The notes under the pieces are model-generated. The model searched no databases. It saw nothing but the letters and a program-made list of their open reading frames with translations, and was not told the DNA's origin. This document shows positions 6,900 to 36,486 of a stretch of 64,000 nucleotides of DNA, one piece after another. The stretch is taken from NCBI GenBank assembly GCA_039819165.1, contig JBCBSM010000001.1, positions 1,860,001 through 1,924,000 on the forward strand, given 5' to 3'. The DNA comes from Planctomycetota bacterium (lineage in GTDB: Bacteria > Planctomycetota > Phycisphaerae > Phycisphaerales > UBA1924). The position numbers and the translations under genes are program-made. How positions within the stretch are numbered: the stretch's first letter is position 1; every line of letters starts with the position of its first letter.

Positions 6900-8176
6900 C
6901 GGCCGCCCGACCCCGAGCCGCTGCCCTCGGAGGATCCGGCGGACCCGGGCGGTGCGGATGTCTCGGAAGCCCCGGCCGACTCGGGCGGATCGAATCGCCG
7001 CATCCACGCCTCGACCTCGACGCGATCCGGCGAGACGGCATCGCCCGACCCGATCCGCTGCAGCCCCTCGATCACGATCGACTCGTCGGCGCCGAGCCCC
7101 GACCGCACGACTCGCAGGCCGTCGATCATCGGGCCGAGCTCGACATAGCGGTACTTCGCGTTGTCCTGGTCGTCGACGACGACCACGAACTGGCGGGACT
7201 GATCCGTGCCCACCGCCTGGTCGGGGATCAGCACGGCCTCGTACTCGGCGGTCCCCAGCAGCCTGACCTTGGTGAACAGGCCGGGCGTCAGCAGCAGATC
7301 TGGGTTCTCGATGATCGCCCGGCCCTGCATGGTGCCCGTCTGGTTGTCCACGCGGTTGTCTACGAAGTCCATGACGCCGCGGTGCGGGAAGCCGGCCTCG
7401 TCCACCAGCCCGATCTGCACGGGGTTGGCCGCGTCGCGCGAACTCGGCCGCGCGCCCGAGTCCGCCAGCCGCGCGTATCGCAGGAACTCCTGCTCACTCA
7501 CGGTGAAGTAGCAGTGGATCGGATCGAGCGAGACCACCGTCGCGAGTATCGGCGAGGACGCGGTACCGCCCGCGATCAGGTTGCCGACGTCCACAAGGTT
7601 GCGGCCCACGCGGCCCGTGATCGGCGAGCGGACCTCGGTGAACTCCAGGTCGAGTTCGGCCGTCCGCACGCGGGCGGCGGCGGCCTGCACCTCGGCCTCG
7701 CGCTGCGCGACCGTCTGCGTCGCGCTATCCAGCTCCGAGGGCGACGCGGCCTGCTGGCCGAAGGCCCGCTCCACGCGGCCCAGATCGTTCTGGGCGAGCT
7801 TCAGTTCCGCCTCCGCCCGGGCTCGATTCGCCTGCTCGGATTGCAGCAGCGCTTCATAGGGCCGCGGATCGATCACGAACAGCACGTCGCCCGCATCGAC
7901 GATCTGTCCGTCCTCGAAGTTGACCGACTCGACGTAGCCGCTCACCCGCGCCCGGATCTCGACCGACTCGACCGGCTGCAGCCGGCCCGTGTACTCGTCC
8001 CACTCCTGCACCACGCGGCTCACCGGCAGCGCCACGGTGACCTCGGGCGGCCCGGCATCGGGCGGCGGGGCGTCGGACTCGCACCCGGGGCCGGCCGCCA
8101 GGCACGCAACCCCCGCCATCACCACTGCCGGGAACCAGGGCCCCCGCGCAACCCGCCGTGCATGCATCGCGTCCAT
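6896..8176 (-). CDS. RND efflux periplasmic adaptor subunit (MFP, AcrA/MexA type)
   Basis: 426 residues from ATG 8176; ATG 8167 three codons later and upstream starts are possible. A basic N-terminus and hydrophobic stretch lead to 'LAAGPGCESD', a possible lipoprotein site at about Cys32 with an imperfect lipobox. Then come a barrel-sandwich segment ('ARVSGYVESVNFEDGQIVDAG'), a coiled-coil hairpin (~residues 85-150), the second half of the lipoyl-like domain ('SPITGRVGRNLVDVGNLI') and a beta-barrel/MP domain. Adaptors of this type bridge the RND pump and the outer-membrane channel. The gene ends inside the pump gene (4-base overlap), so the two are co-translated. A truncated TetR regulator lies 225 bases upstream. 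Confidence 0.93.
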   Translation of the reverse strand: MDAMHARRVARGPWFPAVVMAGVACLAAGPGCESDAPPPDAGPPEVTVALPVSRVVQEWDEYTGRLQPVESVEIRARVSGYVESVNFEDGQIVDAGDVLFVIDPRPYEALLQSEQANRARAEAELKLAQNDLGRVERAFGQQAASPSELDSATQTVAQREAEVQAAAARVRTAELDLEFTEVRSPITGRVGRNLVDVGNLIAGGTASSPILATVVSLDPIHCYFTVSEQEFLRYARLADSGARPSSRDAANPVQIGLVDEAGFPHRGVMDFVDNRVDNQTGTMQGRAIIENPDLLLTPGLFTKVRLLGTAEYEAVLIPDQAVGTDQSRQFVVVVDDQDNAKYRYVELGPMIDGLRVVRSGLGADESIVIEGLQRIGSGDAVSPDRVEVEAWMRRFDPPESAGASETSAPPGSAGSSEGSGSGSGGR

Positions 8177-8401
8177 GGAAGCCCATGGTACCGCCGGCGG
8201 CGGCGGCCAAGGGACGCCGCGCACTTACAGGGGCACATGGCACATGCGGATCGCGGCGAGGAACACGACGGACGCGTGTGCCCGTGCGACGACGCGTGCC
8301 GGCGACTAGGGATAACCGCCATAAGCCAGACGGGCGCGCCAACCAAACGCGACTCGCCGCCGACGGTGCATCGAGTCGCTCGGCGCCGAACCGTCGTGAG
8401 T

Positions 8402-8596
8402 TCATGAGGAAAGTGGCAACGGGGCGCCGCCCAGCCGGTGGTCGAGCAGCAGCTGCGCCACGCCGCGCGCGGTGCGGCCGCTCTCTTCGTCGCCCGTGAC
8501 CTGCCGGGTGACGCATGCGCCCTCCATGAGGAGCACCAGCTCCTTGGCGAGCGCCGCCGATGCCAAGGCAACGCGAAGTGCGCTTGAATCGCTTCT
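8402..8596 (-). pseudogene. C-terminal remnant of a TetR-family repressor
   Basis: Reading the minus strand, an open stretch of 64 codons ends at TGA 8402-8404. It contains 'ASAALAKELVLLMEGACVT' followed by 'RQVTGDEESGRTARG' and 'VAQLLLDHRLG', the usual last two helices of TetR regulators. An in-frame TAG at 8597-8599 cuts it off upstream, and no helix-turn-helix region can be found beyond that point. It points the same way as the efflux operon and sits just upstream, which is the usual place for the pump's repressor. I infer that the repressor was lost. The break lies close to repeated island-end sequence, so an earlier insertion may have removed the 5' part. Confidence 0.7.
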
Positions 8597-8890
8597 CTAG
8601 CAGCGCACATCCACGCCCACGGACTAACGGCCACGTCTCTTCTTCTTCAGGAAGTACTTCGGATAGAGAGCACCGACGTCTCCGTCGTATGCCCGACCGA
8701 GCCTGCAAGCGGTGTCCCGTCCCTGTGAATTCCCGCATCGCTCCAACGCGGGATTTCTGTCGGTGAACTCAGCCAAAGAGTCCAGGTGGCGACGTTGACG
8801 GCTGGTAGCTCGCTGGGGCTGTCATCGGCTTAGGCTTCAGGGCGGTCTGGTCGACTCAAACACCACCCGCGCCCGATCAATGCGCGGTGT
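8597..8890. other. gene-free stretch, probably debris of an older insertion
   Basis: I see no gene here. The first ~130 bases are featureless apart from the in-frame stop that ends the TetR remnant. From 8731 the sequence begins to parallel the island end at 16001-16250 (palindrome, 30-bp block, terminator hairpin, tRNA 3' end, in the same order and at nearly the same spacing), but most of it has diverged too far to align base by base. Confidence 0.5.
8731..8757. repeat. TCCCGC...GCGGGA palindrome, left copy
   Basis: An inverted repeat with arms TCCCGC and GCGGGA and an ~11-base centre, followed by TTTCTGT. A matching palindrome with the arms TCCCG/CGGGA, the same total length and the tail TTCTGT lies at 16001-16028. 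The two sit at nearly the same distance from their respective tRNA-Asp sequences. Each could act as a weak intrinsic terminator on the plus strand or as an end structure of the island. Confidence 0.6.
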
Positions 8891-8920
8891 GGAGAGCGCG
8901 CACTATTCGATCTTCGGCTA
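8891..8920. repeat. 30-bp direct repeat, left copy (partner 16166-16195)
   Basis: The 30 bases here, beginning GGAGAGCGCGCACTATTC and ending TTCGGCTA, are identical to 16166-16195. The copies are 7275 bases apart, one base different from the spacing of the duplicated tRNA segment. At the right copy this block forms the right arm of a perfect 12-bp palindrome. Here the left arm has diverged. Confidence 0.9.
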
Positions 8921-8935
8921 GACCGGGCCCACCCC

Positions 8936-8970
8936 CAAAAACGATAAGCCCCCGCAATGCGAGGGCTTTC
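8936..8970 (-). terminator. duplicated, decayed tRNA-Asp terminator
   Basis: A hairpin AAGCCCCCGC / GCGAGGGCTT with three loop bases and one mismatched pair. On the minus strand it is followed by a T-rich CGTTTTTG run. It occupies the same place relative to the tRNA fragment as the intact terminator at 16212-16245 does to the real tRNA-Asp gene. Confidence 0.6.
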
Positions 8971-8971
8971 A

Positions 8972-9018
<47 letters not shown>

Positions 9019-9171
9019 GGGCTACGGGGACCAGGTCGGCCCACCTGAGGGGTCAGAAACCGCGTTCTTGGGGCCGTCAGGCCGTTCGCTTGTACGCATG
9101 TATGCGATCAGTCGAGCGCTAGTTTCCCCCCGATGAGAGCGCACTGGAGCGCGCACCGTCATCTTCACACC

Positions 9172-30916: not shown

Positions 30917-31109
30917 CGCGGCCCTCCTCCCGCTCGCCCGGCCGCAGCACCACCTCGTCCACCGTGGTGGTGGTCCGTCGCAGCACGACGCGCTCGCCGT
31001 CGCGTGCCGGCGGGCGGGCATCTCGTGCGGCGTCCTGCTGCTCGTAGCGCTCGGGCGAGCTCTTCACGGCCCGGACGATCTCACCAAAAAAGGCGCCCAG
31101 CGAACGCAT
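30909..31109 (-). CDS. small hypothetical protein, partner of the PH-domain protein
   Basis: 66 residues from ATG 31109; a GTG at 31154 would add 15 residues. It begins 'MRSLGAFFGEIVRAVKS', a possible amphipathic helix, and is otherwise charged and Arg-rich ('GERVVLRRTTTTVDEVVL'). It has no membrane helix or known motif. The 8-base overlap with the PH-domain gene points to coupled translation and a joint function. I do not recognise the family. Confidence 0.6.
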   Translation of the reverse strand: MRSLGAFFGEIVRAVKSSPERYEQQDAARDARPPARDGERVVLRRTTTTVDEVVLRPGEREEGRDG

Positions 31110-31218: not shown

Positions 31219-32091
31219 TCAGGACTCGCCCGCCTCCCAGCGGATGGGGACCTGAGCCTCGGCCCAGCGATCGCGGGCGGGCATGGTCGGGCCGTTGTAG
31301 CCCAGCCATCGGGGCGGGCCCGCGGGCACCCAGCGGCCTGGCGCCATCGAGCCGTCGGGCCCATAGTTGGTCGAGCCCTGCGTGCGGAGCCAGCGGTACA
31401 GCCGGTCGGTCCGCTCGCGGATCATTTCGTCGTCGGCCACGCCGCGGATGCCGACGCTGATCACCGTCACCGGCGGCGCATCGACGACTCGGACGCCCCG
31501 CTCGGCCTCCCCGACCGGGCCGAGGTCCTCGGTGCGGTACAGGAACGACACGGTGACGTCGCCGCGCATGGAGCGATCCGCCGCCGGCTCGCCGAGCTGA
31601 TCGATGGCCTGCGCCATCGCGGGCATGTCGTTCTCGACGGGCGCGGTCATCGCGATGTTGCGGTCCTTGATGTGCATGAATAGCGGCATGAACGCCTGCG
31701 ACGCCGCGCGCCGGGGCGTGTTCTCGACCGTCAGCTCCGCGCGGCGGACGCTCGGGTAGCTCTTGATCTCGATGGCGCCCGCGGGCGTGGGCCGCGGGTA
31801 GCCCTCGGGCAGCACCGCGGTGGTGCGCATCGGGCCGGCGACGTAGACCGTGCCCTCCTCGCCGTCCTCGACGATGGCCGTCCGCGTCTGGATCTCGAAG
31901 GCCGCCTCGCCGCCGACCCGCATCGGCGTCGCGACGGTGGCGGACGCATCCTGGTCGGTGCCGCGGTCGGCGACGCTCGTCGTCGTGCCGCTGGTCTGGG
32001 CGATCGCGACCGCACCGCTGCAGGCGGCGGCCGTCGCGGCGAGCCGCAGGGTGCTGGTGAGCCTCGCGATCGATCCCGGCGTGCGTGACAT
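31219..32091 (-). CDS. SOUL-family haem-binding protein, exported
   Basis: 290 residues from ATG 32091, with AGGAG 9-10 bases upstream. A Tat/Sec-type leader with an Ala-rich core ends near 'SGAVAIAQTSG'. The SOUL domain follows: 'GEAAFEIQTRTAIVEDGE', 'AIEIKSYPSVRRAEL', 'QAFMPLFMHIKDRNIAMT' and 'APVENDM'. The HIKxxxIAMTAPVE block is the family hallmark. SOUL/HBP proteins bind haem or porphyrin. Unusually, ~60 residues of linker separate leader and domain. It is 130 bases downstream of the Rieske operon and on the same strand, so a redox or haem-related context is plausible. Confidence 0.88.
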   Translation of the reverse strand: MSRTPGSIARLTSTLRLAATAAACSGAVAIAQTSGTTTSVADRGTDQDASATVATPMRVGGEAAFEIQTRTAIVEDGEEGTVYVAGPMRTTAVLPEGYPRPTPAGAIEIKSYPSVRRAELTVENTPRRAASQAFMPLFMHIKDRNIAMTAPVENDMPAMAQAIDQLGEPAADRSMRGDVTVSFLYRTEDLGPVGEAERGVRVVDAPPVTVISVGIRGVADDEMIRERTDRLYRWLRTQGSTNYGPDGSMAPGRWVPAGPPRWLGYNGPTMPARDRWAEAQVPIRWEAGES

Positions 32092-32221: not shown

Positions 32222-32980
32222 CTATCGGATGACGCCGGCGGACTCGACGGCGATCCACAGCCAGCCGTCGCGGGCCGACACGTCGCCGGTGACGACGACG
32301 GGCCGGCCGATGGCGTCGAGCAGCTCGGCCGGCATGACGCCGCCGTCGGCGGCGGTCACGAGGGCGTAGCGGGACTCGCCACTCTCGTCCCGCCAGGCGA
32401 TCATCGGCGGGACGCCGCCCCGCACGCACAGGATGGCGCAGGCGCGGTGGCCCTCGCCCTCGCCGGGCATCATGGCGCCGAGGTAGCACTTGCTGTCGAG
32501 CAGCTGGGTGTCGATGGTGTGCCGTCCGAGCGGCCGCGCATCGGCGCGACCCTCGGCACGCAAGGGGGCGGAGGTCGCCGCGTCGGCATCGGTGACGGCC
32601 CGCTCGTCGGCGTCGTCGATCGACAGCATCCGTAGGCCGTCGCGCCGCAGCTCGAAGCCGGTCAGCGCGACCCGCTCGCCGGCGCGGCTCGTGATGCGTT
32701 CGTCCGGGCCGCTCTTGGCGATGCCCACGAGCAGCACGCCCGGGCCGCCGCCGTCGGGCAGCAACATGGGGTAGGGCTCGGCGACGATCGTGCCCGTGAG
32801 CGTGACGGCGTTGGACAGGTCCCAGGTGCCGCCGCCGGGATCGCGCTGCGCGACGGCCGACGCCACGCCCACGCCCAGCATCAGCCCGGCGAGGCCCGCG
32901 ATTGCGGTGAGCACCACGGCGAACAGCGCGGCGGGCAGCGGGCGGTAGATCACGTAGATGCTGGGCTTGGTCTTGCTCAT
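32222..32980 (-). CDS. membrane-anchored protein with a conserved Cys motif, Rieske-operon partner
   Basis: 252 residues from ATG 32980, overlapping the Rieske gene's stop by 4 bases. One N-terminal helix ('ALFAVVLTAIAGLAGLMLGV') anchors a periplasmic domain. A distinctive central motif is 'DSKCYLGAMMPGEGEGHRAC' followed by 'AILCVRGGVPPM', with three Cys and a His. I recall this Cys-x-Leu-Gly...His-x-x-Cys-Ala...Cys-x-x-Gly-Gly pattern from conserved proteins next to Rieske or oxidoreductase genes, but I cannot name the family. The Cys/His set could bind a metal or take part in electron transfer. Confidence 0.82.
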   Translation of the reverse strand: MSKTKPSIYVIYRPLPAALFAVVLTAIAGLAGLMLGVGVASAVAQRDPGGGTWDLSNAVTLTGTIVAEPYPMLLPDGGGPGVLLVGIAKSGPDERITSRAGERVALTGFELRRDGLRMLSIDDADERAVTDADAATSAPLRAEGRADARPLGRHTIDTQLLDSKCYLGAMMPGEGEGHRACAILCVRGGVPPMIAWRDESGESRYALVTAADGGVMPAELLDAIGRPVVVTGDVSARDGWLWIAVESAGVIR

Positions 32981-34038
32981 CCGGCGTGCTCGCTGTTCGC
33001 GTCGCTCGGGATCGAGACCGGCTGCGTCGGCGTGCCCGGTGCGTTGGGTTCGGGGTTGACCTGCACGCGGCCGCCGCGGACCCGCAGCTCGTAGGTGGGG
33101 ATCTTCTCGGTGTAGGGCGGCGGGCTGGTGCCATCGGCGATGTTGTACTGGTAGCCGTGCCAGGGGCAGGTCGCGCAGCCGTCGATGATCTCGCCCTCGC
33201 CGATGGGGCCGCCCTGGTGGGAGCAGATGTTGCTCATCGCGTGCAGCGAGCCGCCGTCGCGGAACACCGCGACACGCGCGCCACCGCCCAGGCAGACGAC
33301 GCGGGCCCTCTGATCGGGGATGTCGCCGGCGTCGCCGATGTCGACCCAGCCGTCGTCGGCGCGATCGGGTGTAGCGGCGTCGCGCTTCAGCTCGCGGGTG
33401 CCGGCGGCGAGGTGGAGCCCGCCCAGCGCCAGCGCGCCGGCCGCGAGCAGCGCGGGCAGCACGAGCGAGGTCTCGGACCGCAGCACGCCCAGCGTGACGT
33501 GCGCGACGACGAGCGCGTACGCCACGTACACCAGCATGTGCAGCGCCTTCCAGGCCGCCGGCCCGAGGAAGGCGAGCCAGAAGTCGTGGCTCGTGGCGGC
33601 CAGCAGCAGCAGGACGAGCAGCGCGAGGAAGCCCAGGAATTCGAAGCCCACGCCGCCGCCGGGCCGCACCAGCACGGCGACGAGCGGATTCTCGACACCG
33701 AAGCCGCCGTACCAGCCGGTGACGACGAGCGCGTGCAGCAGCGCCACCAGGAACAGCGTGACGCCGAGGTGCCGGCGGTTGGCAAGCAGGAACGTGAACC
33801 GCTCGCTCAGCCGGGCGAGCGGACCGATCGCCAGGATGACGTGCAGCAGCACGAGCGCGAGCGTGCCCAGCGCCCGCATCAGCAGCGTGGGGATCCACTG
33901 GTCGGGCTGGCGATCGGGGTAGGCCGCGAGGCTCACGCCGATGAAGGCGGCGACGAAGGCGACGCAGAGACCGACCACGATCGCGTCGTAGACCAGCTTG
34001 TGCCTGGTCCAGTTGACGGCGCGGAAGCGGACGCTCAC
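32977..34038 (-). CDS. ferric-reductase-like cytochrome b membrane domain fused to a Rieske 2Fe-2S domain
   Basis: 353 residues starting at GTG 34038, in a GTGA overlap with the preceding small gene. The N-terminal ~215 residues have about six helices with His pairs placed as in ferric-reductase domains: 'LLHVILAIGPLARL', 'RRHLGVTLFLVALLHALVV' and 'ALHMLVYVAYALVVAHVTLG'. They could bind two b-haems. The C-terminal ~100 residues are a complete Rieske domain: 'CSHQGGPIGEGEI' then 'CATCPWHGYQYN' (C-x-H...C-x-x-H). The fusion couples a quinol- or haem-side membrane module to a soluble Fe-S centre. Neighbours are two tiny membrane proteins and the Cys-motif protein, all overlapping. Confidence 0.92.
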   Translation of the reverse strand: MSVRFRAVNWTRHKLVYDAIVVGLCVAFVAAFIGVSLAAYPDRQPDQWIPTLLMRALGTLALVLLHVILAIGPLARLSERFTFLLANRRHLGVTLFLVALLHALVVTGWYGGFGVENPLVAVLVRPGGGVGFEFLGFLALLVLLLLAATSHDFWLAFLGPAAWKALHMLVYVAYALVVAHVTLGVLRSETSLVLPALLAAGALALGGLHLAAGTRELKRDAATPDRADDGWVDIGDAGDIPDQRARVVCLGGGARVAVFRDGGSLHAMSNICSHQGGPIGEGEIIDGCATCPWHGYQYNIADGTSPPPYTEKIPTYELRVRGGRVQVNPEPNAPGTPTQPVSIPSDANSEHAG

Positions 34039-34205
34039 GGCGTGCCCTCCGCGGCGGCGGCTTCAACTTCGGTACCAGTGTCGATGGCCGGCCCGGGCTC
34101 GGGCGGCGGCGTCCGAAGCAGCAGGCCCGCGGCGATCACCGCCAGCACCGCCGGCAGCACCAGCAGCCACAGCGCCACGTGCATCTTGCGGTGTGCCGCC
34201 CTCAC
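34035..34205 (-). CDS. tiny membrane protein of the Rieske operon
   Basis: 56 residues starting at GTG 34205, in a GTGA overlap with the upstream gene; ATG 34184 is the alternative. It is a single helix 'LWLLVLPAVLAVIAAGLLL' followed by a Pro/Glu/Ala-rich tail. The stop overlaps the Rieske-fusion start by 4 bases. This strict overlap chain suggests a small subunit of the same membrane redox complex. It has no Cys or His cluster of its own. Confidence 0.7.
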   Translation of the reverse strand: MRAAHRKMHVALWLLVLPAVLAVIAAGLLLRTPPPEPGPAIDTGTEVEAAAAEGTP

Positions 34206-34408
34206 GAAGACGCTCCGGCCGAGATCCACCGCAGCAGCACGAGCGGCCACAGCACGGCCAGCCCCGGGATGGCCAGTACGCGGAAGCCCCAAGTGCCGTC
34301 GCGGGCGGCGCCATCGAAGCGGTTCACTCCGCGGATGGCCATGGGGATAGCGACCAGCAGGCCGACGCCCAGGTAGCCCACGATCACCAGGATCAGCAGT
34401 TCGAACAC
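34202..34408 (-). CDS. small two-helix membrane protein, first gene of the Rieske operon
   Basis: 68 residues starting at GTG 34408. Two hydrophobic segments ('LLILVIVGYLGVGLLVAI' and 'VLAIPGLAVLWPLVLLRW') are separated by 'RGVNRFDGAARDGTWGFR'. It is the first gene of a four-gene overlapping run ending with the Cys-motif protein. I do not recognise a family; its role as an assembly or structural subunit of the Rieske/cytochrome-b complex is inference from position. Confidence 0.7.
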   Translation of the reverse strand: MFELLILVIVGYLGVGLLVAIPMAIRGVNRFDGAARDGTWGFRVLAIPGLAVLWPLVLLRWISAGASS

Positions 34409-34614: not shown

Positions 34615-35229
34615 ATGCGCAGCACCGCCATCGTCGTCGCCCTTGCCGCCTGCACCGCCGCCGCCTCGGGCCAGGAGATCTGGTCGGGCTACGACCTCGA
34701 GTTCGTCAAGCCCGACGGTTCCGATTGGACGCTGCCGGAGAACCAGGACCTCCTGACCGACAACGTCATCCTGACCCGGCAGGAGCGACGGGGCGTGTAC
34801 AACATCGCCGTGGAGCCGTTCTACGCCGGCATCGCGAGCCCGGCCGACACGGCCTGGGCCATCGGCACGACGGCGGACCTGGACGCGCTGGCCTTCGACT
34901 GCTGGGAGTGCATCGCCGGCAGCAATCCGCAATCGCTCGTCGGGCAGAACGCCGTAGTGCACCTGATCACCGACGACATCTACGTCGACATCCGCTTCAC
35001 GTCGTGGTCGTGCTGCGGCGCGGGCGGCTTCGGCTACGTCCGCGGCCTGCCCGATGTCGCGTGCCGCGCGGATCTCGACGGCGACGGCGAGCTGACGCTC
35101 TTCGACTTCCTAGCGTTCCAGAACCTGTTCGCCGCCGGCAATCTTGCCGCCGACTTCGACGGCGACGGCTCGCTGACCATCTTCGACTTCCTCGCGTTCC
35201 AGAACGAATTTGCATCGGGCTGCCCCTAG
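34615..35229 (+). CDS. secreted GC-dockerin-type protein
   Basis: 204 residues from ATG 34615, behind AGAGAGAGG. The signal peptide is 'MRSTAIVVALAACTAAASGQ'. The mature ~120 residues form an unrecognised, Cys-containing domain ('DCWECIAGSNPQ', 'TSWSCCGAGGFGY'). The C-terminus is a pair of EF-hand-like loops, 'ADLDGDGELTLFDFLAFQNL' and 'ADFDGDGSLTIFDFLAFQNE', closed by a final Gly-Cys-Pro and opened by a Cys, the GC-dockerin-like tail. Such tails are thought to anchor or sort secreted proteins in Phycisphaerae. The gene next to it encodes a second protein with the same tail. Confidence 0.85.
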   Translation: MRSTAIVVALAACTAAASGQEIWSGYDLEFVKPDGSDWTLPENQDLLTDNVILTRQERRGVYNIAVEPFYAGIASPADTAWAIGTTADLDALAFDCWECIAGSNPQSLVGQNAVVHLITDDIYVDIRFTSWSCCGAGGFGYVRGLPDVACRADLDGDGELTLFDFLAFQNLFAAGNLAADFDGDGSLTIFDFLAFQNEFASGCP

Positions 35230-35307
35230 GGCCCACGCCGCCGCAATAGCCCCGCCGGTCCGCCGTTCGTTCTCGTGCGTGCAACCACGCCGAACGGAGG
35301 ACATCCC

Positions 35308-36486
35308 ATGCGACCCGTCCCGCACCCCCTCCTGCGCCTCGTCATGCGTCTCGATCGCACTACCGCCGCTCTTGCGGTGCTCGCCGCCAGCAGCGCACAC
35401 GGCCAGGTCGAGGTGCGAGAGATCGACCCGACCGACACCGATCCGGCCATCACGCCGCTGGTGGCTCCCAGCGGCCTGGAGGCGCTCCACGTGGCCGCTC
35501 TCGATCCCGCGCTGCGGCCCGCGGAGCGGCCCGGGCTGCTGTTCGTCTTCCTGCCGGGCAGCGGTGGCGTGCCCACGCAGTACGCCGAGGTCGTGGCGCA
35601 CGCCGCCGGAGAGGGCTGGCACGCCCTGGGCGTGGCCTACGGGAGCTGGCCCTCGGTCCGAGATCTGACCCGCGACAGCAGCGACCCCGATCTGCCCGAG
35701 GCCATCCGCCGCGAGCGGCTCTTCGGCGAGCCGCGGACCGACGTCATCGACGTGCCACCGCCCGACGCCATCGACAACCGGCTCGCGCGGGCCCTGGCGT
35801 TCCTCGAGGCGGCGCACCCCGGCGAGGGCTGGGGCCGATTCCTCGACGCCGGCGGCGAACCGACCTGGCGGACGATCGTCGTCGCGGGCCACTCGCAGGG
35901 CGCCGGACACGCCGCCTACCTCACCAGAGACTTCAGCATGGGCGGTGCGATCATGTTCGCCGGCCCGGGCGACTTCGTGCCGGGCGTGGGCCCGGCGCCC
36001 TGGCTCTTCCGTGGCGGCAACACCCCCGCCGAGCGGATGCTCGCCTTCACGCACGTCAACGACCCGACGGCCGCCGGCTTCTTCGGCAACCAGCGGATCC
36101 TGGGCCTCGAAGCGTTCGGAGGCATCGAGAGCGTGGATCGCAGGGCCGCCCATGAGCTCTCGAGCCACATGCTGACCAGCCTGCGGGATCCCGGCCACCG
36201 CAACTTTCACTCGGCCGTGGTCGTGGACGAGTTCCTGCCGACCGGCGCTACCGGCGAGAACCTCTACGAGCCGGTGTGGACCTACTTGCTGGCGACGCAG
36301 GCCGAGGCGTCCCGCGGCTGCCGCGCGGATCTCGACGCCGATGGCGCGCTGTCGCTCTTCGATTTCCTTGCGTTCCAGAACGCGTTCGCCACCGGCGACC
36401 CGACCGCCGACTTCGACGGCAATGGCGTGCTGACGCTGTTCGACTTCCTGGCGTTCCAGAACACGTTCGCGGCCGGCTGCGCGTAG
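35308..36486 (+). CDS. secreted alpha/beta hydrolase with GC-dockerin tail
   Basis: 392 residues from ATG 35308, with CGGAGG 7 bases upstream. A leader with core 'TTAALAVLAASSAHGQ' is followed by an alpha/beta hydrolase domain. Its nucleophile elbow 'TIVVAGHSQGAGHAAYL' (Ser in GHSQG) and oxyanion region 'LLFVFLPGSGGVPTQYA' are clear, and a late 'DPGHRNFHSAVV' may supply the His. The C-terminal tail repeats 'ADLDADGALSLFDFLAFQNA' and 'ADFDGNGVLTLFDFLAFQNT' before the final Gly-Cys-Ala. It resembles secreted esterases or polymer-degrading hydrolases; the substrate is unknown. It lies 78 bases after another dockerin-tailed gene. Confidence 0.88.
   Translation: MRPVPHPLLRLVMRLDRTTAALAVLAASSAHGQVEVREIDPTDTDPAITPLVAPSGLEALHVAALDPALRPAERPGLLFVFLPGSGGVPTQYAEVVAHAAGEGWHALGVAYGSWPSVRDLTRDSSDPDLPEAIRRERLFGEPRTDVIDVPPPDAIDNRLARALAFLEAAHPGEGWGRFLDAGGEPTWRTIVVAGHSQGAGHAAYLTRDFSMGGAIMFAGPGDFVPGVGPAPWLFRGGNTPAERMLAFTHVNDPTAAGFFGNQRILGLEAFGGIESVDRRAAHELSSHMLTSLRDPGHRNFHSAVVVDEFLPTGATGENLYEPVWTYLLATQAEASRGCRADLDADGALSLFDFLAFQNAFATGDPTADFDGNGVLTLFDFLAFQNTFAAGCA

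Follow-up and report, generated by a model that had tools for sequence, protein, structure and literature searches.

MsrQ (YedZ) is a cytochrome b that belongs to the ferric reductase domain (FRD) superfamily and delivers electrons to a partner in the periplasm; according to a paper of 2024, no other prokaryotic FRD protein has a physiological role that is clearly identified (PMC11031084). In this study, a stretch of 64,000 nucleotides of a Planctomycetota bacterium (assembly GCA_039819165.1, contig JBCBSM010000001.1, positions 1,860,001 to 1,924,000; hereafter the window) was found to carry an operon of four genes, labelled A, B, C and D in this analysis, in which C encodes a fusion of an FRD with a Rieske domain. 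As an architecture, this fusion is already known, and an FRD survey of 2013 lists Rieske among the modules attached to FRD proteins; the part of the survey presenting it holds nothing on the operon, on A, B or D, or on function (PMC3591440). Likewise, literature searches restricted to open-licence PMC papers yielded no account of the operon, of its genes A, B or D, or of any link to Rieske-fused enzymes. We consider it moderately probable, judging from sequence, that the four proteins assemble into a single membrane complex through which electrons leave the cytosol for a periplasmic D.

The genes are consecutive on the minus strand, between window positions 34408 and 32222, and their reading frames are open at the following coordinates: A, 34202..34408 (68 amino acids (aa), GTG start); B, 34035..34205 (56 aa, its GTG start overlapping the stop of A); C, 32977..34038 (353 aa, a six-helix ferric-reductase-type domain and a C-terminal Rieske [2Fe-2S] domain); and D, 32222..32980 (252 aa, an N-terminal helix and then a predicted periplasmic part). 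A sequence-only reading of this DNA had described four genes overlapping end to start, and stop/start overlaps of exactly 4 bases were indeed found at all three junctions (A/B GTGA, B/C GTGA and C/D ATGA). The start of B is most likely the GTG at 34205 rather than that of the longer TTG frame in the open reading frame (ORF) list. No promoter-like site was found in a scan of the locus, and Rfam gave no match.

Gene C compared with MsrQ, NOX and bc1 proteins

The membership of C in the FRD superfamily is given by its match to Ferric_reduct (PF01794; aa 57-177, 33508..33870, minus strand), which scores 41.4 bits against a cut-off of 28, while the C-terminal part matches Rieske (PF00355; aa 231-316, 33091..33348, minus strand) with 54.1 bits against a cut-off of 20.3. 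The fusion of a ferric-reductase-like helical domain, bearing several His pairs, to a full Rieske domain had been proposed from the letters alone and is borne out by these matches. Hydropathy indicates six hydrophobic helices. In an alignment of C (91 rows, 90 distinct), H90, H102, H151, H167 and H180 are invariant in all rows, as are the Rieske ligands C272, H274, C291 and H294, arranged in a C-x-H ... C-x2-H pattern; C288, an extra cysteine of the Rieske domain, is nearly invariant. The histidine pairs of the superfamily (third and fifth transmembrane helices) are present in C, with helices placed by hydropathy only. Of the four haem histidines, all are present in long FRD proteins and two or three in most short ones (PMC3591440); judged by its aligned residues, C is a short form holding all four. 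Mapped from the NOX2 scheme of the same survey, H90/H167 would serve the inner haem and H102/H180 the outer one. The N-terminus of C and the loop after helix 2 are positive (4 basic residues to 1 acidic in each), and the Rieske domain is therefore predicted to lie on the cytosolic side; natural C–D fusion proteins, described below, require the same arrangement, with the Rieske domain inside and the D domain outside.

The likeness to MsrQ lies in an FRD cytochrome b that would pass electrons to a periplasmic partner. C differs from it by four haem histidines, the C-terminal Rieske domain and the small subunits A and B, and the partner is D rather than the molybdoenzyme MsrP. That the operon encodes a conventional reductase of the MsrQ/YedZ type, serving a molybdoenzyme in the periplasm, is extremely improbable: the FRD part of C does score 51.3 bits on the MsrQ model, but this is far under the NCBIfam equivalog cut-off of 130, and a fourth haem histidine and a Rieske domain are present. 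Furthermore, an MsrP-type Oxidored_molyb protein (PF00174) is absent from the window's genome and from six of its seven operon-bearing relatives (one match in the eight operon-bearing genomes searched, with the E. coli control found). With NADPH oxidases (NOX) and ferric reductases, the long forms of the superfamily, C would share a two-haem FRD and a cytosolic electron-input domain, yet this input domain is Rieske instead of one binding flavin adenine dinucleotide (FAD) and NADPH. Identity with the long forms was rejected, as C matches only Ferric_reduct and Rieske-type families (E up to 1) and no FAD- or NAD(P)H-binding domain. Thus, the A–D system, although likened in working to MsrQ and NOX, lies outside both by its features.

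The Rieske proteins of bc1 and b6f complexes carry an extra disulfide cysteine pair in two loops. The predicted combination of b-haems and a Rieske cluster recalls these complexes, but the Rieske loops of the window's C, CSHQGG and CPWHGY, lack this pair, the domain is predicted to be cytosolic, and C gives no cytochrome b family match. The bc1 assignment was therefore rejected, and of the earlier label "cytochrome-b/Rieske" the FRD/Rieske fusion stands while the bc1 sense does not, the helical part being FRD/MsrQ-like. On the basis of these domain comparisons, the operon is a variant within the FRD superfamily that includes three hitherto unnamed families of subunits, and it is not MsrPQ, NOX or bc1.

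Conservation of the operon across phyla

A profile scan with the C alignment over genome_contigs (one genome per species, 84,980 species) matched at least 591 stretches, 581 of them encoding a relative, and the best 80 constitute the loci examined here. Phylum names are the submitters' titles, and some bins are possibly misnamed; L107 and L031 share an identical C, and counts including both count one C twice. The loci were picked by C alone, A and D being then located with family hidden Markov models (HMMs), and therefore the recurrence of A, B and D is not due to chance. Gene A lies upstream of C in 78 of the 80 loci (the exceptions are L064 and L103, in the latter of which the C match begins at base 5), and D lies downstream in 74 (in one of these, L080, it is cut by the contig end). 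B can be tested only where A and C leave a gap; a B-like reading frame was found there in 72 of 75 testable loci (not in L066, L113 and L115) compared with 43 of 3000 shuffled controls, and its start stands at -4 from the stop of A in 49 of the 72. The order A-B-C-D was thus recovered, as the sequence-only reading had proposed checking, in loci from several phyla and also in records not labelled as metagenome-assembled genomes, e.g. Aquimarina sp. 2201CG14-23 and Moorena bouillonii PNG.

Natural gene fusions were also found. In L051, L084, L119 and L040, A continues into a B-like segment as one protein, and L030, L040 and L096 each encode C and D as a single polypeptide. A quick tree was built from 94 C proteins, 93 of which differ, and has good support at 23 of its 90 inner branches; the A–B and C–D fusions are placed apart on it. 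The number of changes needed on this tree is one each for Pseudomonadota, Bacteroidota and Cyanobacteriota, two for Verrucomicrobiota, three for Planctomycetota and six for Acidobacteriota, which suggests that the C family is old and has mostly been retained within phyla, with exceptions. In L115 (8001-9053) C is split into two HMM matches, 8001-8477 and 8484-9053, by a stop, a frameshift or a sequencing error.

The two tiny membrane proteins had been suggested to be dedicated subunits, and their conservation beside C, together with their occasional fusion to each other, agrees with this. Both retain their place and their motif even between distant phyla, and the lack of conservation that would have counted against the sequence-only reading was thus not observed. 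By hydropathy, A shows two hydrophobic stretches; its family motif, by eye from the alignment, is approximately G..R.D..A....GFR....PG...LWP.L..RW, and neither Pfam nor NCBIfam returned a match for it up to E 1. B has a basic N-terminus with R/K-x-H, one hydrophobic helix and a short tail, and in many other lineages it reaches approx. 130-180 aa; scanned only as the longer 85-aa frame, it gave no Pfam or NCBIfam match.

Within the window's phylum (294 genomes; C at E up to 1e-40, D at E up to 0.001), C was found in 20 genomes and D in 23, and every one of the 20 C genomes has D. The three D-only genomes are represented by L041, L044 and L045. In L041 an apparent operon remnant lies beside a gene for a Rieske-fused glutamate-synthase-like (GltS) protein, and in L044 a shortened D stands alone, again as an apparent remnant; in both, the C-terminal half of D persists without C. 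L045 carries a weak stand-alone relative of D.

The predicted periplasmic subunit D and the proposed electron path

D has a single hydrophobic helix near its N-terminus, the remainder lying outside according to the charge pattern. The core pattern D-x-K-C-x2-G-x-M-x-P-x5-H-x2-C-A-x2-C (aa 162-185, 32426..32497, minus strand) is present in all 86 proteins of the D alignment, in which K89, D162, K164, C165, G168, M170, P172, H178, C181, A182 and C185 are invariant. The window's D matched nothing in Pfam or NCBIfam and no protein of the PDB at E up to 1, and a larger profile gave one chance-level PDB match (E 0.61). Weak matches to DUF5818 (PF19135; E up to 0.1, best E 8.7e-5) occur in 13 of the 86 proteins, the window's D not being among them. 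As far as the alignment and these searches reach, D founds a protein family with a strictly conserved Cys/His/Met site and without a firm Pfam or NCBIfam match. The earlier suggestion that this Cys-motif protein is a dedicated subunit fits its position after C in 74 of 80 loci and the existence of C–D fusions. A twin-arginine (Tat-type RR) signal was considered as a sign of a folded cofactor in D and set aside; the motif occurs in 15 of 74 D proteins and in 12 of the 17 from loci listed as Alphaproteobacteria, and it is weak evidence because it is mostly a clade feature.

The electron-export reading rests on the gene order, the fusions, the invariant histidines, the charge pattern and the co-occurrence with Rieske-fused enzymes described below. 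In the proposed path, soluble cytosolic donors would deliver electrons to the C-terminal Rieske cluster of C, which is of the ferredoxin type; the electrons would then traverse the membrane by two b-haems, from the inner (H90/H167) to the outer (H102/H180), and would finally reduce a periplasmic redox or metal site of D made of three Cys, one His and one Met, A and B being small structural subunits around C. Candidate donors in some species are a pyruvate-oxidase-like thiamine pyrophosphate (TPP) enzyme, a glutamate-synthase-like flavin mononucleotide (FMN) enzyme and a Rieske-FMN reductase, all of them Rieske-fused. The stability of the complex, its cofactor content and topology, the direction of flow and D as the acceptor are what we infer from the sequences. 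For a cytosolic donor to an FRD protein there is a precedent in the flavin reductase Fre, which is able to supply MsrQ with electrons from the cytosolic side (PMC11031084).

The invariant site of D also bears on a metal or thiol role, in which the complex would reduce periplasmic copper, iron or disulfides and D would be a metal- or thiol-handling subunit. Its Cys, Met, His and Cys-x3-Cys set suits a soft metal and presumably resembles copper sites, the FRD relatives include ferric and cupric reductases (PMC3591440), and YHS-like and DoxX genes lie near some loci. However, these genes are one to several kb away and occur at only 16 (YHS-like, below the Pfam cut-off) and 10 (DoxX) of the 80 loci, and no metal transporter or sensor family was recognised near the loci among the clusters present in at least five of them, of which 11 representatives were scanned with Pfam; an ABC-ATPase-like cluster, assigned by eye, lies near 10 loci, outside these 11. 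We regard this role as rather doubtful.

Rieske-fused enzymes and other neighbouring genes

Sequence clustering of the genes near the 80 loci revealed a Rieske–Glu_synthase (FMN) protein at 14 of them and a Rieske–TPP enzyme at 10. The members scanned with Pfam were that of L083 for the GltS protein and those of L082 and L108 for the TPP enzyme; the Rieske part of the partial L062 member is unconfirmed, the frame sent to Pfam having given no match. The order GltS-TPP-A-C-D, with both enzyme genes co-directional, is shared by the Bacteroidota loci L086 (Aquimarina) and L125 (Saprospiraceae) and the planctomycete loci L127 and L131. Among NCBIfam models, those of pyruvate oxidase come closest to the TPP part, and the best PDB match of the Aquimarina copy is pyruvate dehydrogenase [cytochrome] (3eya). 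The enzyme is thus similar to PoxB, but it has an added N-terminal Rieske domain and scores below the NCBIfam cut-offs. The copy of the window's genome (L126 6497-8521, on another contig) keeps a HEGAA stretch and a GDG...NN motif, which we take to be marks of TPP enzymes; its adjacent gene is 25% identical to a gene of the Aquimarina Rieske cluster, a weak resemblance.

In the 294 genomes of the phylum, the TPP enzyme occurs in 12, of which 9, the window's own included (match on G000:C2), are among the 20 with C (Fisher p 8e-10), and four of these nine carry its gene next to C (G045, G155, where the match is in two pieces, G170 and G264). The FMN (GltS-like) enzyme occurs in 26 genomes, a set that includes 9 of the 20 C genomes (Fisher p 7e-6); in five of the 26 the match lies wholly outside the Rieske part, and p becomes 8e-7 when these five are left out. 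In six of the nine C genomes with this enzyme (G045, G103, G135, G155, G170 and G264), its gene is no more than approx. 6 kb away from C; the window's genome gave no match for it at the threshold used. Of the 12 TPP genomes, 11 have both enzymes, and the two also occur together in the absence of C. This association of C with Rieske–TPP and Rieske–GltS-like FMN enzymes, a pattern of sequence matches, is newly found here.

The same enzymes could be read in the opposite direction, with C oxidising quinol or D, and its cytosolic Rieske domain serving the soluble Rieske enzymes in the manner of a ferredoxin. Dioxygenase ferredoxins normally donate electrons to enzymes, and it is these that the Rieske part of C mainly matches among PDB structures and NCBIfam models (an exception is the second-best PDB chain, labelled a b6f iron-sulfur subunit); the adjoining TPP and FMN enzymes, moreover, bear Rieske domains of their own. 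Against such a reverse flow, the TPP enzyme is most like pyruvate oxidase and cytochrome-linked pyruvate dehydrogenase, which is an electron source, the outside site of D would need to be a donor, and NOX, MsrQ and STEAP are described as moving electrons outward from the cytoplasm (PMC11031084). We hold a reverse flow to be unlikely.

Several observations weigh against electron export by a complex of A to D. The TPP gene is on a contig other than that of C in five of the nine genomes (G000, the window's, G278, G035, G103 and G135). At the thresholds used, 11 of the 20 C genomes lack the TPP enzyme and 11 lack the FMN enzyme, and therefore neither is a fixed partner or universal donor; they also occur without C, in 3 of 12 (TPP) and 17 of 26 (FMN) genomes. 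Because the Fisher tests treat related genomes as independent, their p-values make the evidence look stronger than it is. The operon has a scattered distribution (20 of the 294 genomes of the phylum), and D is missing in 6 of the 80 loci (L061, L062, L089, L105, L110 and L117). Finally, in a comparison with three genus-level relatives (L026–L028), dN/dS is 0.62–1.02 for B, indicating little amino-acid constraint, compared with 0.35–0.57 for A, 0.28–0.39 for C and 0.41–0.73 for D; because the sequence of B is weakly constrained, its support comes from position and motif. The weak constraint on B and the loci lacking D also speak for the four genes being chance neighbours that form no complex, but the order across phyla, the shuffled B control and the several gene fusions make this highly improbable. 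In favour of the export reading, at two loci without D, C is followed by a Rieske–FMN_red protein (L089 9126-10214 and L105 7022-8110), whose FMN_red part is an NADPH-dependent FMN reductase, and at L110 by a cut Rieske match; no gene of this type was seen after C in the ORF lists of L117 and L061.

Combining the export reading with the enzyme association, a tentative and somewhat unlikely possibility is that a Rieske-fused pyruvate-oxidase-like enzyme, in many species together with the Rieske-FMN enzyme, feeds the two-haem FRD complex, which would in turn reduce D as a new class of periplasmic metal protein. Such a system would be an old respiratory-type module, in which electrons would be handed over from Rieske to Rieske, from the soluble enzyme to an FRD complex with two tiny subunits.

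Further neighbours of the 80 loci are YHS-like (16), DinB-like (16), VTT/hydrolase (15), TANGO2/NRDE (13), SDR (13), ECF sigma (11), DoxX (10) and zf-HC2 (8) genes, the YHS and DinB labels resting on matches below the Pfam cut-offs. TANGO2 homologues have been described as haem-trafficking proteins (PMC10470608). A cluster of DinB-like and TANGO2/NRDE genes lies downstream, on the A–D strand, in L055, L058, L059, L063, L067, L077, L079, L081 and L093, and a VTT/alpha-beta-hydrolase gene joins it in all nine but L081.

In the window, D is followed by a SOUL gene (31219-32091; PF04832 match, signal-like N-terminus) with a likely ATG at 32091, 130 bases beyond the D stop. No terminator-like site was found between the two genes; a single one lies past the SOUL gene, at 31107–31093, with a chance expectation of 0.6. 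The SOUL protein was rejected as a fifth subunit, since a relative was found in none of 100 other loci (97 with a C match). Hence, while the gene does follow D as had been noted, it is not a conserved partner, and the compact, poorly described electron-transfer complex of the sequence-only reading is partly supported, by its conserved order, fusions and redox domains, and loses the SOUL protein and the bc1 sense. On the other side of the operon, two adjoining plus-strand genes (34615-35229 and 35275-36486) both end in a paired repeat, approximately DLDGDG.LTLFDFLAFQN, which by eye is dockerin/EF-hand-like; a third protein with the same repeat is encoded elsewhere in the genome (L126 2520-4118).

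Beside MsrQ, the A–D operon would represent a second FRD system, one that is widespread and has dedicated subunits of its own; with candidate partners identified on either side of the membrane, the role of this system becomes testable. If true, a Rieske-fed FRD complex would add another means of powering FRD proteins to NAD(P)H/flavin and the respiratory chain.

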